Below, piece by piece: positions 5,750 through 55,531 of a DNA stretch of 64,000 nt. Position 1 is the first letter of the stretch. Each line of letters begins with the position of its first letter. The notes below the pieces were generated by a model. That model was not told the origin of the DNA. It saw nothing but the letters and a program-made list of their open reading frames with translations, and searched no databases. This DNA comes from Rhododendron vialii. Lineage: Eukaryota > Streptophyta > Magnoliopsida > Ericales > Ericaceae. The DNA lies in contig NC_080567.1 in the NCBI RefSeq assembly GCF_030253575.1, positions 20,361,001-20,425,000 on the forward strand. Reading direction: 5' to 3'. The translations under genes were made by a program, and so were the position numbers.

Positions 5750-6947
5750 AGAATAAAATTTATGAGTATTATTTGAAACTTAGAGAAAATGAAATTTTCA
5801 CGAAATACTATATTGATATCTAATAAAATTTAGAAATATGTTATTTCATGCATTGGACTTATTATGTTAGACTTAATGCATGCGATGTTGTATTTGTGAG
5901 TTTTGTTAAATTTTGGATGTTGTTGATTGTTACGTGGATTGTGGTGATTTGTATTGCTATGTGAACGTAGAAATTGGACAATGGGTACCCTGGGGGTATT
6001 CATGGCGTAATTGGAATTTAATAGACGCTAATAAGGCAATTGTCACAAAAGTGATTGGAGATTGTGCATTGTATGCAAGGATTGGAATGAGTAACCCAAA
6101 CAGAGTCCCTGTATGATGGGCGGCCAATAGGTGTGGCCTAAACGGAGCCCCTGTATGCTGGGCGGCCAGCAAATCTAGCCTAAACGGAGTCCCTAAAGGG
6201 CGGCTGGAAGGTAGAGGAAGGTAATGGATGAGTAGACTATACAGAGTCCCTGATTGGAGGGCGGCCGAAAGGATTCTAGTGATTTGTACGAGAGTTTGAA
6301 AATTTTGGTTATGACAGTCATGATTTACTTTGGTGAGACCTTTACCTCTTGCCATGGTAATAAGTGAGTCCGCTAGGTAAATAATTTAGATGCACTCACT
6401 TAGGACCCCGCTACAGGACAAGAGGGAATTTAATCATGCGACGGTCACAGTTGGAATTATTGGGAGGAAAAAAAATTCTCGATGGAGGAGAATCGTAGAA
6501 ACTGTTAAATACAAGATAAATTCATTAAAAGTCTACTACTGTGACTGTGTGTTGTAATTGTTGTATAATTTTGTGTTATTTCATTGAAACTGCATATTGT
6601 GGTATTGGATTCTAGGATTTCTACTTGGTAAATTATCACTCAGGATACGTTTGTAGCCTGACAAATCATTTGCTTCAACGATCAATTTGCCAGAGCGTGT
6701 AGGATTCTTCAGTGGAGCAGTTGATACAGGTGGGACCCCTGGAACAAAGGGTGGGCCAACGTTGCTTGGAATCCTTGTCAAAACTAGAGTCACTCTAGAG
6801 TTGTTTTTAAATAAAAATGTTAGATTTTTGTATTCTTTTGAAATTGTAATTTTTGTATAAGTACAGATAAGGGCCTAGTAGTTTGTAAAATTCGGCGTAT
6901 TTTAAGATTGATGCTTTCGAATTTTCGTGGAAAATCGGGACCTTACA
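4117..6947 (+). mobile_element. Large solo LTR, probably Ty3/gypsy
   Basis: Starts TGTAATATCCCAAAA at 4117 and ends GGGACCTTACA at 6947, the TG...CA termini common in plant Ty3-type LTRs. Flanks are GTCAC (4112-4116) and GTCGC (6948-6952), a 5-bp target duplication with one change. At 2831 bp it is unusually long, and no primer-binding site or internal region follows it. It contains a GA run (4803-4822), proline-codon-rich sequence at 4600-5000 that yields misleading open frames on both strands, and TG/TA microsatellites (5706-5749). Confidence 0.7.
6085..6275 (+). repeat. Four-copy GGCGGCC tandem repeat inside the solo LTR
   Basis: Four degenerate units built on A(A/C)NGAG(T/C)CCCTGTATG-TGGGCGGCC begin near 6098, 6140, 6183 and 6240, about 42-57 bp apart. 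They sit in an otherwise AT-rich LTR, so the GC-rich array stands out. Confidence 0.65.
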
Positions 6948-8368
6948 GTCGCCAAAGCATTTGTTCTAATATTATGTTGACATTTTACTAATTGGAGATC
7001 TCTACTGTTATGTTGACATGTTTTGTAAGTTCTATCATTATATTTCCTTTCTATACTTGAGTACCATTCATGTTTCCAAGTAGTTTTTTCTTTCTTATTA
7101 TGTATGTTTTCCTGGTTTAGTTAGATTTCTTGGTTACGAAGAATTATAGCCTATATAAAGGTATATATAAAAATGTCAGGCCTATGTTTTAGATATATAC
7201 ATCAATAAGAGCAAGTTTAAGTCAATTTACTTTCTCAACCATCGATATCTCAAATAGCATCGGATTGATGATCATTTTTAGCCGCAGTAATATTTTCTCC
7301 CATGTGAAAGTCGTGACATCCGAAGGCGAAGCTGTATGTAGAGGATGGGGCATGTGCGAAGTATCCCACCCATGTTTCAAATTAAAATTTGCGTTTACGT
7401 GATACGATTACTAAACCACTTATCAGTACCCGAACGAATTGGTCTTTATCATAACTAAAGAAAAGATAGAGAGAGAAAAAAAAATTAACAGTTCGTATGA
7501 TAAAATATTACTTATCTTAATGACATTTATTAAAGATCAAGAGAGAATTGAATCAGACCTTTACTCTTTCTTAACAAAAATAAAGTCCAAACAAAGCTCC
7601 ATTGTATCATTTTACGTACACTAATTAAATTTCATTTTGTGTACATTTATGCTCAACATACAACGCCAGAAATGGACTCCCATGAAATAACGGTACCCCA
7701 AATCCAAGTCGTGGCTTCGTCCTTGCTGACATCCATGTGCTCCTTTATGATGGGCGGACACATTTGTTGAGTTGGTGTACATTATTGTGAAAATGTAAGT
7801 CACAAGTGCGTGAGCATACGTAAAAGCTTCTTTCAAAAATATCTCAAACTAGTTAAATTCTCAAGAGCAATGAGAGCAAGCGTAGAGCGAGGATTGAGAG
7901 CGGAAGTGGCTTCCTCCAATGATTGCATACTTTCATGTATGCCTGCGCTTTTAGGGTTAGTGCCCAGATGGACAACTCTGTCCCTGAGTTTCTAATGGTC
8001 AATTTACCTACCACAATATACCACAAGCGGGGTATTTCTATGATTATGCCTTAACTCATGAACAGGACATCGATAGAGTAATGCTCAGATAATAGTACTA
8101 TCAAATGAGAGAAACTTATTCACGGAGGAGCTGTGAATAAGTTATTTACGTCTTCGCACAATCACAACCGTCTATTTTGACAATTAATGGTTGAGATACA
8201 TTTTTAAACTTGACCGATAATAATTTGTTTTTAATCTGAACTGTCCAAAACACTTTTGGACGCGTAAGATTGAGTACCGTAAATCTTATTTGTTTTTCTC
8301 TTATATTCATAAAGCAAACATTTATCATAATGCTCATGCAATGGGATCTTATCACAAAAGACTAGAAA
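6948..8368. other. Intergenic, no gene seen
   Basis: No gene or complete element identified. Around 8108-8145 the sequence CTTATTCACGGAG...GTGAATAAG forms a short inverted pair, and a related CTTATTCACGGAG motif occurs at 13370. This suggests a dispersed small element whose ends I cannot place. Confidence 0.5.
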
Positions 8369-48310: not shown

Positions 48311-48318
48311 TTATCTTA

Positions 48319-48358
48319 GGGAGTTTATAAATACAACTGCGAATTTACTGCATGTAAC
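48319..48358 (+). repeat. MULE left terminal inverted repeat
   Basis: Starts GGGAGTTTATAAATAC and contains GCGAATTTACTGCA. It pairs with 55354-55393. Confidence 0.9.
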
Positions 48359-48657
48359 TTGTTTTTAAGTAAATAATATTCGGACAAAAATGCCCTTATA
48401 AAAATGGACAAAAATACCCCTACTTTTATTACATACAACCACAAACATACAACCACGTCAAAAAAACATGCACCCCGTAAGTCCATAACCCACCCACGTT
48501 TCCCTCCATTTTTTTCCATCTCCTTCCAGGGGAAACCATCTGGTTCTCTGGTTCCATTCCAAACCACCATTGTTGAGCTCCCACCATTGTTGAGCTCCCA
48601 TCATAAACCCAGTCGACATCTGCCTGCGAACTCTCGCTTCACACCTTCTATCTCTCA

Positions 48658-51600
48658 ATGGAAACCTCCATTGCTTCCTCTCCCTCCATTGGCAAAGAAG
48701 AAGTCTTGAACCCAACATATGAGAGCAATGTGCATTTTGATTGGGGATTGGAAGATTGTGCAATGGAAATGGAAGTTGACAAGGAAGAGGGAGCCATGGA
48801 TGTTGCAGTTTCAGAGCCAAAATCACAGCACGAGGTAACTCATCACTCATAAGCCTGGTTTTGTCCCGACATTATCATATTCTAAAAATTGAAATTACGC
48901 CACAATTTCAAACTCTAGAGTTTGAAAATTGGAAGCAATATCATATTCTAAAACTCGAAATTATGCCAAAATTTCAAACTCTAGAGTTCGAAACTTGTCG
49001 ACAATTATCACTCCTCCATTTTAAATCTGGTTCTGCCACGACATTGTCAGATTATAAAACTTGAAATTAGGCTAACATTTCAAACTCTAGAGTTTGAAAA
49101 TTGCAGATATATCATATTCTAAAACTCGAAATGTTGCCAAAATTTCAAACTCTAGAGTTTGAATTTGTAGACAATGATCACTCTCCCATTTTTAAGCTGG
49201 TTTTGTCCCGATGTGTTCAAATTCTAAAATTCAAAATTATGCTAAATTTGTAAACTCTAAAGTTTGAAACTTATATCATATTCTAAATCTTGAACTTATC
49301 ACAAAATTTCAAACACTAGAGTTCGAGACTTGCTGATAATATCATATTCTAAAACTTGAAATGTTGCCGAACTTTTAAACTTTAGAGTTCGAATATTGTG
49401 CAGAGTGTGTTTAATTGATTTTTCTTTTGGTGTTCTAGGGTGACACTTCAACATTTGGTAGTCATGTAGGACCCGCAACAAATCCTACTCCCACTCCTAC
49501 AATATATGATTATACGGAGCATTTCACAACGGACAAGGTGAGTGTTTCAAACCATGGAGTTTTTTTCATGTTCAACCTTATGGTGCAGGTTATGATTTTT
49601 TTTTTTTTTACTTTTGTACAGGTATTTTTGTCCGAGAAAGAATTGGTAGAGTGGACAAGATCTACGGGTAAACGATACGGCTTTGTCATTATCATTAAGG
49701 CCTCGGAGAAGTTTATTAAGAATCGCAAACCGAGGATGAGGTTTTCATGCGAAAGGAGCGGGAAGTATAGGAAGTTTGTGAAGAAGTATTTGGGGGAGGT
49801 GGTGGCTGTGAAGAAAAGGGCGACGCGTTCCACGGGCACAAAGAAAATTGAATGCCCATTTCTATTGAAAGGTGTAAAGGGCAATGATGGTTGGACTGTC
49901 TCTGTCCATAATGGCACTCACAATCATCCCCCAGCGGTGTACTTGGAGGGGCATTCGTATCCTGGAAGGTTGTCGGCGGAGCAAACTGCCACGTTGGTGG
50001 ATTTGTCAGTCGCTATGGTTAAACCCAAACAAATTCTAAGTCAGTTAAAGGGCAATGATCCTTCGAACGTCACGACAATCAGACATGTGTACAATGCACG
50101 ACATAAGTACCGAGTGATAGAGAAAGCCGGGAGAACTCAAATGCAACATCTAATGGCTCGGCTACAACATTTTAGCTATGTGAATTGGGATCGTTCGAAC
50201 AAGGATGGGAATGTCACAGACTTGTTTTGGGCTCCCCCTTGCGCTGGCGAGATGTTACGTGCTTTCCCTCGAGTGTTAATGATGGATTGCACGTACAAGA
50301 CAAATAGGTACAGGTTTCCATTGCTGCAAATTGTTGGCGTAACATGTACGGAATTGACTTTTAACGTAGCATTTGCTTTCATTGAGTGTGAAAAGGAGGA
50401 AAACTACACTTGGGTGTTAGAGAAGTTAAAGGGAATGATGGATGCTGATGCGCTTCCGGTTGTTATCGTTACGGATAGGGAGTTGGCGCTTATGAATGCC
50501 ATCAGCAGTGTTTTCCCTCATGCTACCAATCTCCTATGTAGGTTTCATATCTCAAAGAACGTCTTAGCTAAGTGTAGGAAGATGTTTGATGACAAGACGT
50601 GGGAGGAGTTTAGTTGTAGCTGGGGCCTAGTTGTCCTTTCAGCGAGTGTTACACAGTATGAGGAGCGCCTTCGTGCTTTGAAGCGTGATTTTCAAATGTT
50701 TCCTGCAGCACTTGATTATGTGGAGAAAAATTGGTTAATACCTTATAAGGAGAGGTTTGTTGGAGCTTGGACGGATAAAGTCATTCATTTTGGTAACCTA
50801 ACAAGTAATAGGTAAATGTTTTATTCGCAATTTAAGCACTTTCTTTTTGCATTTCAAGTAAAATCCATATATGTTATTTGATATGGCTAACGTCTAGATA
50901 TATTTATTTTTTCGTAGGGCGGAGAGTGCACATGCTGCGCTAAAACATCAGCTAGAGCACTCCCAATGTAACTTTGACAATATATGGGAGAAAATGCACC
51001 GACTTATTTTGTTACAAGAAACTGAAGTCAAAGCTTTTTTGGAGAAGAGTCTTACTTCTATCCCACATGAATTTAGGAGTCCTCTATTTGAGATATTGAG
51101 GGGAGTTGTTTCGAAGAATGGCATGACACATGTTCTGGCCGCGTCCCGTCAAGTGGAATGGATTGTGGAATCGAACCATGCGTGCGAGTGTGCTTTGAGG
51201 TACACCCATGGTTTACCTTGGGCTCATGAGATTGCTCCTTACAAGACGAAAAATATCCCCCTACCGCTTGAGTTAATACACGACCATTGGAAGAGGCTGT
51301 CTTTGGTTCCAGCCCAGAATGATGCTTCGTTGGGGGAGACAATGAAGGCTAAGTTTCAGATTTTCTACGATAGATTTGTTAGTGAAAAGCCTGATGTCCA
51401 GCGCCATATGTTCAAAAAGTTCGATGAGGCTATCAATCCGGATTACACTACCCTTGTTGAACCCCAAGAGAAGGCAAAGCCACGCGGTCGCATGTCAACA
51501 AAAGAAAAAAATGCAGCTAAAGTGAAAAATGCAACTAAAGTAAAAAATTCGACAAGTAGGAATCCTTCGGAGTTTGAGCATGTTTTGGCCTCCCTTCAAC

Positions 51601-52373
51601 CCTCCCTTGAAACCCCCAAGGCAGTCAAAGAGAAACCACGGCGCAATCCGAAAGCCAAAGAAAAAGTTACAGCACAAGTTTCAACATGCCACTTCATTGA
51701 TCAATTTCCGAAACCAATAAGACCTTACATTGAATCGGTTAAGGATGTTGAATCTGATGGGAATTGTGGGTTCCGGGCAATATCGGCCTTCATCAATGAA
51801 GATTGCAATGAGCATGAGTGGAAACAGGTAAGAATTGATTTACTAAGAGAGTTGGATGCAAATTTTGACCTGTACGAAAGAGTGGCATTGAGGAGCGGGA
51901 GGGCTTGGGAATTACATTGCATTTTAAATTGGCATGAAAGTCCTGCACCACAGGCTAAGTGGATGACAATGCCGGACATGGGTCACCTCATAGCCTCTAC
52001 TTATAACTGTGTCCTCATCCACTTATCAAAACTACAATGCCTTATGTTCCTTCCCCTTCGATCTAAACCCTTACCCTCCATGAAGCGAAAGGTTATTGCT
52101 ATTGGATTCGTTGATGGGGGACATTTTGTACAGGTACTCAAGTTATTAGTTTATTATTTACACATTTCTATATAACGAATGTTGCTCTTGAAATCCAAGT
52201 TAATGTAATTGTTATACATACCCTCTCATTTGTACATCATGAACCTCTTAAAGTCTAATTAAAATTAATTTTTTTAAAACCTACTATGGCAGGTGTTCCT
52301 TAAAAAGGGTTCCCCCATACCGCCAATAGCTTGCAATTGGACAATCTATCGCGACTCTATAGCAAAAAATTAG
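48658..52373 (+). CDS. MULE transposase with FAR1-type zinc finger, DDE, SWIM-like and OTU domains
   Basis: Exons 48658-48834, 49439-49537, 49622-50811, 50918-52133, 52293-52373; GT/AG junctions keep frame for 920 codons. Domains: acidic N-terminus (1-90); WRKY/GCM1-type zinc finger as in FAR1/FHY3 (about 100-200; C135, C170, H192, H194); MULE DDE core with Asp314 (MDCTYKTNRY), Asp377 (VTDRELALM), the C-x2-H of CRFHI and Glu491 (NRAESAHAAL). A SWIM-like motif follows (CEC...GLPWAH, 578-592) in which the third Cys is Trp. Then a basic linker and an OTU cysteine-protease domain (about 755-900) with the DGNC box (Asp769, Cys772) and GGHFVQV (His891). Expected role: nuclear protein binding the TIRs and cutting the element. 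The OTU domain suggests deubiquitinating activity, by inference. MULE-OTU fusions occur in other plants; function is not established to my knowledge. Start is the first ATG in the leader giving a spliceable frame. Confidence 0.88.
48855..49430. repeat. Higher-order palindromic repeat array in transposase intron 1
   Basis: A ~171-bp unit starting CTGGTT(T/C)TG(T/C)C recurs at 48855, 49027 and 49197. Each is built from two related blocks (TATCATATTCTAAAA...GCCA-AATTTCAAACTCTAGAGTTTGAAA). The 22-bp perfect palindrome TTTCAAAC-TCTAGA-GTTTGAAA occurs at 48906-48927 and 49078-49099, and nearly perfect at 49143. Diverged single units appear again at 52660-53060 and 54820-54960. Confidence 0.8.
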
Positions 52374-52571
52374 GATGTACCATATGTCAAGGCCATTCAA
52401 AAGTTCAAGGAGATCATTGGCAATGACGTTGCAACAAAGGAGGTCATCGATGTGGATTAGGCATTTTTATTTGTCAAATGTATCTTGGACTTTGAGTTGC
52501 TATTTTGTTTTAGAATGGTGATTGGACTTTGGATCCTAATATTTGACAAATTGTAGTTGTACATATTTTGG

Positions 52572-52655
52572 TACTTATGGATGAATGTTGGCAGTCTGAT
52601 ACTTATGGATGAATGTTGGTAGTCTGATACTTATGAATGATTGTTGGCAGTCGGA
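52572..52655 (+). repeat. 28-bp x 3 tandem repeat downstream of the transposase
   Basis: Units 52572-52599, 52600-52627 and 52628-52655 share TACTTATG-ATGA; they lie in the presumed 3' UTR. Confidence 0.85.
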
Positions 52656-53076
52656 CAAAGAACTTTCAGATTGTAGAGTTTGAAAAAATCACTTACAATC
52701 ATACTCTAGTACATGAAATTTGGAAATATTTCAATCTCATGAGATTGAAATTAGTGCAAAATTTCATATTCGTATATAGTTATGGATCCGTCAAAGGAAA
52801 GTTGGAGATATTCAAAATAGACTAGATTGGTAAAATTTATATATTTCAGATTATATAGTTCAATTTCTGGAATTTGAAATGTTGGTATTAATTCATACTC
52901 TACAGTACGAAATTTACTCATATTTGCATATTATAATGTATGAAATTTATGTAATATTTCGAGTTATAGAAATTGAAATTGTGTCGGTAAAGACTGGGTG
53001 GGGTTCAATTTGTAGAATCTGAAACTTTGTCACAACTTCATACTCTAGAGTTTGAAATTTCAAGGATTATCACATT

Positions 53077-53391
53077 CTAATATATGAAGTTGACCATACG
53101 CAAAATCTGAAACTTTGTCACAACCTCATCCTCTTCTGCCTGTGCATCCGGCCTGGCCTCCTCCTGGACCTCCTCCGCCTGTGCATTGTGCCTAGCCTCC
53201 TCCTCCGCCTCTATAGCATTCTCCTCCACCTGTTGCTCTGCCTCAGGCTTGTTCCCCTCCTCCCTGACCTCTCTGACAACCTTCTTCTGCCTCTGTCGTC
53301 GTCCTCTCCCTCCAACTTCTCCAACTTCTGAAGTTAAAGTTTGGTCAGCCTTCCTCTTTCTTGCTGAAATAGTAGGACGAGTCCTCTTCAT
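53077..53391 (-). CDS. Charged minus-strand ORF inside the MULE
   Basis: 104 codons from ATG at 53391. The N-terminus is basic (MKRTRPTISARKRKAD, then RGRRQRQKK), resembling a nuclear localisation signal. The rest is Glu/Ala-rich with imperfect repeats (EEARHNAQAEE, EEARPDAQAEE) likely to be helical. No recognised domain. A plausible acceptor (ATACAG) lies 5 bp before the ATG, and an AAAAG/GTAATT donor-like site lies near 55018 after a Pro/Ser-rich frame (55246-55022), so the ORF may be the second exon of a transcript from the right TIR. It converges on the transposase gene, as mudrB does on mudrA, but I see no sequence relation. It may also be non-coding. Confidence 0.35.
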   Translation of the reverse strand: MKRTRPTISARKRKADQTLTSEVGEVGGRGRRQRQKKVVREVREEGNKPEAEQQVEENAIEAEEEARHNAQAEEVQEEARPDAQAEEDEVVTKFQILRMVNFIY

Positions 53392-55353
53392 TTCCCTGTA
53401 TTCACCAATTCAGAGCAATCAACCTTTAGCACATGGATTCCTCTACATTTTCTGTTAAAAAAATCGATTTTAAACATCTAAAATGATAGAACATCTCACA
53501 TAGTATAAGCAAATAAGACCCATTCTTGAAAAAATATTATAAGAAAGAAACATAGAAAAACCAGTACTCAAGTGGAAAAGACCTTTATTTATTGCCCAAA
53601 AAAATAATTTGCGCATATAAGTGTTATACCATGAAAAGGAAAAAATAAATAATATGAAACTCACAAGCAATATTATTGCCTTCATACCATTAGACTTTGT
53701 ATCTTACTGCTCTATTGTTTACTTTCATTATTCTTTGAATTTCCGAATGTGGATATCGTCTGTGAATCTATCTTACGCACAATGCATTTGTAGATTGCAT
53801 GACGTTGGTGGATTCGTTTGCCTTCTTTGTGTTTTCCCAACCTAGGATGTGTTCTAGGCTTAGACTGAAACCCATGAAAAGTTGGACAGTCACGTAATTT
53901 GTTTCCATAGTGTTTTATCTATCCACTTCGTAGCTGTAATTCTTTCCATCTAATCCATCTTAGGAACTGAATGATGTGGATGACTAGATTGCAACATGTT
54001 TATTTTTTTGCTCTCCATCATAATTCCCGTGCATGACTCACAAGCAACAATTACCAAAATGGTTATTCATTCTATCACTCTCTCAAGCACCATAGTAACT
54101 AGGCTCTTCAACATGCTAACAAAAATTTGAAAAAAGAAAAGACAATAATTGCCTAAGTTAACAGCATTCCATAAGATTTAGGTATTGCTCAAATAGCAAC
54201 AAAGTTGTCAAATAAGTACTTCCAAGACCAAACACAAATGAGTCAAACGACCCAACGTAAGAAATGTAAACTTCCACAATGTGTCTTAGTGTGAGAGAAC
54301 CTTTATATTCCAGATTTGCTCCATGTACAACTTTTAGAGATTGAATGTTTGAACTGGAGAGCAATGGACTAAAGATTAACATGAGAATTGGGTTTTTTCC
54401 CGCCTAAAGGTTTTCACATATAACTACGGATGATTATACAACTAAAGTACCGATCATCATTACTACATTTTTAATCGCAGCAAGATTATCCATTAATGAG
54501 AAACTAACTCCTAAAGTTCGGAACAATGAGCTGCTGAATTACAATTGCTATAGAACCAACGCCTATTCAATAGAGTTATTAAGAAAAACAAACAAAGGTA
54601 GTGATTTTCAATCCCTTATTTGATAAATGCGCTCCGTCCTTTAGCGAAACTCTTTGATAGAAATTAATTGGATCAACTAGTCCTCTTTTCTACATTGGTT
54701 TTTCTCTTAGGAATTTCATCGAACACATGGTGTTCAAAGTTATTTACGGTTGATTAGAAACACATAAAACGAACATAGAGGAACCACTATAATTTTCAAT
54801 CTGTTTCAGATTCAAACATCTCAAATAAATGTAAAAAATCAGATTCTTAAGTTCGAAATCTGTCTCAGAAATCAATTTCAAACATCTGAAATAAATTGAA
54901 AATTTCAAGTTTATATGTCTGAATATGGCACCAGATTTTCGGACTCTAATAATTGAACAGAAAACCTAAAATCAAGTTCTAATATCTGATTGTATCAGTT
55001 AGGGATTCAAAAATTACCTTTTCAAAGAGTTGGGTTGGACGACGGAAGTGATGCCACCGTGGTGATGCTTGCTGATGTGTGGCGGTGGTGGTTCGACAAT
55101 GGAGACAGCAGAGGTAGGGAGGGAGAAGAACAGGGAGAAGGGGGAAGGGAAGTGGTGGTGTTTTGGGTGGGTTTCAAAATTGGAGCGAGGGTTGTGGGTT
55201 TTTCAGAAAACAGAAAGAGGCCGAGAGGGGAATGGAGGGTTTTCAAAAAAAATTGGCCGATGGATTGGGGAGGGATAATTTTGGAAGTTCATGCCTATTT
55301 TGGAGTTGTATGATAACAATTTTTATAAGATTTGTGGTTTAAGTTAGTAAAAT

Positions 55354-55393
55354 GTTACGTGCAGTAAATTCGCACTTGCATTTATAAGCTCTC
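55354..55393 (-). repeat. MULE right terminal inverted repeat
   Basis: Reverse complement starts GAGAGCTTATAAATGC and contains GCGAATTTACTGCA; followed by the target duplicate TTATCTTA. Confidence 0.9.
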
Positions 55394-55531
55394 TTATCTT
55401 AACACTTTAAGTATATAAATTTGTTAAATTAAATGACACCCAAAACGACGTTGCTTGGTCCAAGGAAAAGACCAATCTCCACGGTTCAACGGACCAATTC
55501 CCACCGAAACCCCTCCTTCCCTACTTCTCCA

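Follow-up and report, generated by a model that had tools for sequence, protein, structure and literature searches.

A decayed Rhododendron vialii MULE from a family whose transposase carries an OTU-like domain

The 64,000-nucleotide stretch of Rhododendron vialii DNA analyzed here (the window; contig NC_080567.1, positions 20,361,001 to 20,425,000) contains, at 48319-55393, a 7,075-bp Mutator-like element (MULE) whose gene has five exons with GT-AG borders and 920 open codons. We interpret it as a member of a plant MULE family with a fuller form of ~9.5 kb, one that has undergone an internal deletion and point mutations, and, taken together with the mechanism proposed below for its ovarian tumour (OTU)-like domain, we give this reading a probability of roughly 0.82. 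The sense gene of the family encodes a transposase with FAR1-like, MULE (DDE), SWIM-like, and OTU-like parts, and a second gene, in antisense orientation, specifies a plant mobile domain (PMD) protein. Missing from the window copy are the greater part of this PMD gene, the third Cys of the SWIM-like motif, and the C terminus from codon 921 onward.

Element family and lesions of the window copy

Upon re-reading the element ends, we agreed with a first-pass annotation of this DNA, made from the letters alone, on the 40-bp terminal inverted repeats (TIRs; 35 of 40 positions identical) and the perfect 8-bp target-site duplication (TSD; TTATCTTA), and such ends are those by which MULEs are recognized (TIRs with a TSD of 8 to 11 bp). 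The five-exon, 920-codon frame was likewise re-derived, and the 920-aa product contains the DDE residues D314, D377, and E491 as well as the OTU residues C772 and H891. The FAR1, MULE, SWIM, and OTU domains that the annotation had assigned to this protein were recovered only in part when the spliced product was scanned with Pfam: the MULE domain (PF10551) matched residues 310 to 405 with an E value of 7e-28, FAR1 (PF03101) reached an E value of 8e-5 and 23.7 bits, below its curated cut-off of 28.1, and SWIM gave no match over the whole window protein at E values up to 1, the CxC...CxH pattern being found in relatives only.

The genome searched was a single assembly of 532.6 Mb in 13 contigs. 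Copies with the same TIRs were readily found, as an 82-bp left-end query returned 133 candidate places, 40 of which were scored, 4 of these (own included) being at 100%, and a 92-bp right-end query returned 52 candidate places, 40 of them scored. Pairing the ends by position and strand, done by eye on the two lists of 40 scored places, yielded 24 elements of ~0.8 to 11.2 kb, including that of the window. The closest full-length copy read is the sister copy C9 (C9:25820878-25830430; ~9.55 kb). Its identity to the window element is 97.6% across 4.78 kb on the left side and 98.2% across 2.27 kb on the right; the five exons are shared, and C9 carries one in-frame stop of its own. Another member, L004 (C2:32667863-32669266), is a 1.4-kb non-autonomous derivative lying between A runs, in which family positions to ~1108 are joined to ~6801-7081 of the window element (the count includes the TSD). 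TSDs flank all 12 of the other elements whose two ends were read (perfect at 8/8 in 9, 7/8 in 2, and best taken as 9 bp at 8/9 in 1), with the TSD length ambiguous for C9 and L004 because C9 adjoins T runs and L004 adjoins A runs. These copies constitute an element family, and their ends are not a product of chance.

The first-pass annotation had described the window copy as apparently intact, a description that could not be maintained: sister copies exposed three lesions, all private to the window among the copies compared, and for that reason a long clean frame with TIRs and a TSD is insufficient to call a copy intact. The first is a nonsense change at codon 921 (TGG to TAG; W921*), a codon that is Trp in most relatives listed. 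It is followed in frame by 28 codons conserved in the relatives, up to the family's own stop, at which the sense product of the family has ~949 codons. The second lies in the SWIM-like motif, whose third Cys has become Trp590 in this copy, such that the CxC...CxH pattern is broken. This Trp had been noted as a peculiarity of the protein, and it is indeed present, but the Cys is kept in 18 of 19 other loci with the pattern (17 of 18 distinct elements, L030 and L037 being one element; L024 has Tyr), and the change is therefore the decay of one copy rather than a family trait.

The third lesion is the absence of 2,528 bp of C9, in place of which the window has 30 bp, 21 of them copied from nearby sequence. 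On the antisense strand, the missing segment extends the frame that begins at window position 53391, and the resulting C9 open reading frame (ORF) encodes a PMD protein (Pfam PF10536, E value of 3.3e-44), the N terminus of which corresponds to window 53391-53077; the Pfam scan of the window antisense ORF alone was empty, and its identity is taken from the C9 copy. A 111-bp query across the deletion junction had nine genome matches, the window's own being the sole one to span it, and the near copies L028 and L030 likewise diverge from the window sequence at the deletion point. Internal deletions with templated filler are a trace of interrupted gap repair in Mutator and Ac elements, and the deletion in the window looks like the outcome of such an event.

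Private changes were called against C9 plus four other copies in a first stretch and C9 plus two in a second, and they amounted to 12 of 1,477 and 14 of 1,765 sites, respectively (~0.8%). The private coding changes of the second stretch comprise seven non-synonymous or nonsense changes, C590W and W921* among them, and four synonymous ones, a ratio that would resemble unconstrained decay. C>T or G>A accounts for 11 of the 14 private changes in window 51037-52563 and 1 of the 12 in 48319-49818, and the excess in the former is a pattern that methylated DNA would give. At plant mutation rates, ~0.8% corresponds to a time on the order of 0.5 million to a few million years, which is an upper bound for the insertion because some changes may predate it. 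The recent insertion proposed by the first-pass annotation is thereby supported, in that the window insertion appears young on a million-year scale.

Two other readings of the locus were weighed. If the window copy were intact, autonomous, and now mobile, it would have to tolerate Trp590, the shorter C terminus, and the PMD loss; its uninterrupted frame, good splice sites, perfect TSD, and retained DDE and OTU residues would suit such a copy, and the PMD gene may be dispensable, since none was recognized by eye around a copy of the young family described below. Codon 921 is moreover a stop in L027 and L046 and Cys in L032, which also counts against treating W921* as a lesion. Nevertheless, both W921* and C590W are private changes at positions kept in most relatives, and the decay-like composition of the second-stretch coding changes argues in the same direction, making an intact copy improbable. 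A domesticated host gene of the FAR1 type, in place of a transposon, is hardly credible at this locus: the FAR1-MULE-SWIM layout is common to FAR1/FHY3-type plant genes, according to a survey (PMC8599713), but this idea was rejected on the grounds of the TIRs, the TSD, and the copies, with about two dozen end-paired elements and the decay of the window copy pointing the same way. We retain the reading of a damaged member of a MULE family, one that probably lacks a fully working transposase and would be mobile solely with help from another copy.

The OTU-like domain and its possible function

The OTU-like domain was examined in an alignment of 21 rows, consisting of the window and 20 OTU loci that are 40 to 99% identical to it (the set is without L015, L017, L019, L022, L023, L025, L026, L027-L032, L036, and L037). 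A search of all PDB chains with the profile of these rows gave ten matches at E values up to 10, and all ten were OTU proteins, the best at 9.1e-6. They comprise three viral entries, OTUD5 (2), VCPIP1 (3), OTUD1, and OTUD3, and we take the viral entries labeled polymerase to be OTU domains. A Cys at the catalytic position, in the motif DG[NH]C, is present in 20 of the 21 rows, and the His is present in 21 of 21. As judged by these comparisons, the domain is similar to OTU proteins and keeps the putative catalytic Cys and His.

For the OTU core, the ratio of non-synonymous to synonymous substitution rates (dN/dS) between the window and C9, L030, L028, and L011 was 0.06, 0.12, 0.22, and 0.34, respectively, the values for the nearest pairs being rough because the counts are small, and it ranged from 0.26 to 0.34 against eight loci of the 70% class. 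The corresponding values for the DDE part were 0.14 to 0.21 against the relatives in which it was read.

Several results weigh against the OTU assignment or against a functional enzyme. The whole window protein has no Pfam match to OTU at E values up to 1, and among the 21 domain rows, 16 matched the otubain family C65 and one matched OTU (E value of 0.12), all weakly, with 0.011 as the best E value for any OTU-type family. C65 scored 12.8 to 14.5 bits for L034, L035, and L043, compared with a cut-off of 24.3, and was not matched in the other relatives scanned alongside them. Absence of an OTU profile hit, the finding that the first-pass annotation had named as contrary to its OTU call, is thus literally what Pfam gives, and the call stands on the match of the family profile to solved structures. 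The single window OTU sequence had two weak PDB matches, a prenyl synthase (E value of 0.93) and 5jze (E value of 1.3), the latter presumably a viral OTU. The single-sequence AlphaFold2 model of the OTU core had a predicted local distance difference test score (pLDDT) of 42 and was of no use for the fold. Tyr replaces the catalytic Cys in L046, L019, and L026 (L019 and L026 lie outside the 21-row set), and no catalytic acid is evident, the sequence around the His being HFV[QHM] in the alignment. Finally, constraint was weaker within the 70% class, with median dN/dS values of 0.33 for OTU (44 pairs) and 0.55 for DDE (28 pairs), as would be expected if that class held many dead copies.

The weak Pfam scores, the lack of an evident acid after the His, and the three loci with Tyr would also fit a non-catalytic domain that binds ubiquitin or plays a structural part, for example in dimerization or target binding. 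However, catalysis would be expected to preserve just the two residues that are kept across 40 to 99% identity, and we consider a non-catalytic domain possible but rather unlikely. A ubiquitin-cleaving role, which the first-pass annotation had proposed in the form of a deubiquitinase, is the reading that we adopt tentatively, at somewhat short of even odds.

In the mechanism that we envisage, the FAR1-like domain would bind the element ends and the DDE domain would cut and join, leaving the 8-bp TSDs. The OTU-like domain of living relatives would most likely act in cis as a deubiquitinase that reaches the element ends and the target chromatin, where it could strip ubiquitin either from the transposase complex, promoting its stability, or from chromatin and repair proteins, providing access or countering silencing.

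Spread of the fusion and comparison with known systems

A genome search with the OTU core gave 325 candidates, of which 150 were scored, with identities from 99% down to 38%. Leaving out second pieces of one locus (C9:7603533 and C4:13612296), these represent 148 OTU places. At least 98 of them are preceded by a scored DDE match on the same strand, at a distance of 0.3 to 5 kb (median, 1.33 kb), a lower bound because 150 of 892 DDE candidates were scored; the fusion is thus a common one in this genome. Within 5 kb of the 148 places, no scored DDE match was found downstream or on the opposite strand. Against a general fusion stand the 50 places without a scored DDE match.

A young related family was represented by eight places with equal OTU scores and open frames. 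Four of its copies are 99.86 to 99.88% identical to L047 over 1,671 to 2,111 bp, the OTU and DDE frames are open in the copies read, and for two copies the comparison extends to 5.1 kb, at 99.5% identity. The copy on C13 has a 9-bp TSD (CTCCACGCA), matching TSDs were not seen at the ends of the C6 copy, and no PMD-like ORF was recognized by eye in 9 kb around a young-family copy (ORFs of at least 100 aa; no profile scan). Since this family is near-identical, the OTU-MULE lineage has moved recently, while the window copy itself looks spent.

The window element resembles plant MULEs of the Jittery group, as tabulated in PMC6446971, in its 8-bp TSD (where indicated there), TIRs (from 39 bp in that group), N-terminal FAR1 (a FAR1-like region here), and SWIM-type motif (broken in the window copy), a likeness that rests on TSD length and domain layout relative to the published table; that table does not list OTU for the group and lists antisense PMD for other plant groups. 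CitMule of citrus, which its authors grouped with Jittery (PMC4334395), is alike in its size of ~7 kb, its five exons, and its FAR1, SWIM, and MULE transposase domains, but it has a 9-bp TSD, degenerate ends, and a predicted protein of 795 to 805 aa, and the word OTU is absent from the main text of that paper. An OTU domain within a MULE is described for the Hydra element MuDR-6_HM, listed as carrying an 'Ovarian Tumour Gene' (PMC6446971); as described in that table, it differs in being of an animal and in having no FAR1 or SWIM listed.

Other ubiquitin-related proteases have been recorded in transposons. ULP1, a ubiquitin-family cysteine protease, occurs in plant MULEs (Kaonashi; melon, rice, and grapevine), Jittery-like elements included, according to the account in PMC2528002, but there it follows the transposase ORF and can have either orientation, whereas the domain here is OTU-like and fused in frame. 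Ginger1 (PMC2836005) and Helitron/Helentron OTU proteins (PMC6431247) likewise combine a transposition enzyme with an added OTU, although they belong to other transposase superfamilies and, as described there, occur in animals and some fungi. That OTU and ULP1 might serve repair in transposition was suggested by Bao et al. (2010; PMC2836005). PMD genes have been found within MULEs, as here, but those described by Ikeda et al. (2017; PMC5418596) are transposase fusions in grasses and Amborella, in contrast to the separate antisense gene of this family, which is broken in the window; these authors speculated that captured PMDs serve anti-silencing.

In a survey from 2021 that covered 18,744 FAR1 genes of plants (PMC8599713), no word of the main text begins with OTU. 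Already on record are thus an OTU-bearing MULE of Hydra and plant MULEs with ULP1. For an OTU-bearing plant MULE, we found no account in the open-access literature covered, which took in neither paywalled articles nor Repbase nor protein databases. Automatic annotations with a FAR1-MULE-OTU layout may exist.

In its widest form, the proposal would be that plants harbor a large, old, and still active MULE lineage in which the transposase carries, as a fused part, an active deubiquitinase that works in cis at insertion sites, and that some families add an antisense PMD protein against MAIN/MAIL-type silencing. We regard this as doubtful. If true, such elements would hold two separate counter-silencing tools. 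The fusion itself would extend the link between ubiquitin-family proteases and DNA transposition to an in-frame OTU on FAR1-type plant MULE transposases; the 99.86 to 99.88% identical young copies make the OTU role testable.

Feature coordinates and further observations

Table 1. Features of the window element (window positions) and places of the young-family copies
Feature	Position	Strand	Remarks
Left TSD (8 bp)	48311..48318		TTATCTTA
Left TIR	48319..48358	+	35/40 vs right TIR
Exon 1, codons 1-59	48658..48834	+	GT donor; aligned with sister copy C9
Exon 2, codons 60-92	49439..49537	+	Aligned with C9
Exon 3	49622..50811	+	FAR1-like region and MULE transposase domain
DDE Asp residues, exon 3	D314 50285-50287; D377 50474-50476	+	
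Exon 4	50918..52133	+	E491, SWIM-like motif, linker, OTU core
E491, exon 4	50922-50924	+	
SWIM-like CxC...(C)xH, codons 578-592	51183..51227	+	C590W from private C>G at 51221
OTU-like domain core	51699..52133	+	Cys772 51765-51767; His891 52122-52124
Exon 5 to private premature stop	52293..52373	+	TAG 52371-52373; W921*, change at 52372
Conserved 28-codon tail (DVPYVKAIQKFKEIIGNDVATKEVIDVD) and family's own stop	52374..52460	+	In frame past W921*
Filler, 30 bp	53094..53123		Replaces 2,528 bp of C9; 53104-53124 is a repeat of 53016-53036
Cut-short antisense PMD ORF	53077..53391	-	N terminus, ~89 codons to 53124, then filler
Right TIR	55354..55393	-	
Right TSD	55394..55401		TTATCTTA
Young-family copies read (L047, L070-L073)	C6:13741090, C6:23137393, C13:18263327, C8:12435237, C10:13602834 regions		

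In nine loci of the 70% class (L012, L013, L014, L018, L020, L022, L024, L025, and L029), a second OTU-like remnant, truncated at its N terminus (for example, SNHQCLTFFPLRYPPLPPES..NGDHFVTVHL), was observed on the same strand ~1.1 kb 3' of the first one, and L028 has a shorter piece of it; this second copy was set aside as a C-terminal relic. At L046 (C4:26451900-26453000), the OTU-like domain with Tyr for Cys directly follows a transposase leader resembling exons 1 and 2, the transposase part itself being missing, and this locus is perhaps an OTU-only gene or a deletion.

A palindromic TTTCAAACTCTAGAGTTTGAAA-like unit recurs many times in window 48880-49400, within intron 1, and in 52640-53090, 3' of the gene. 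Some 140 bp past the right end of the element, an ATG followed by a Ser/Leu-rich start (MASSLSLSLS...) opens a frame from window 55532 onward, which is perhaps a candidate host gene with a transit peptide.

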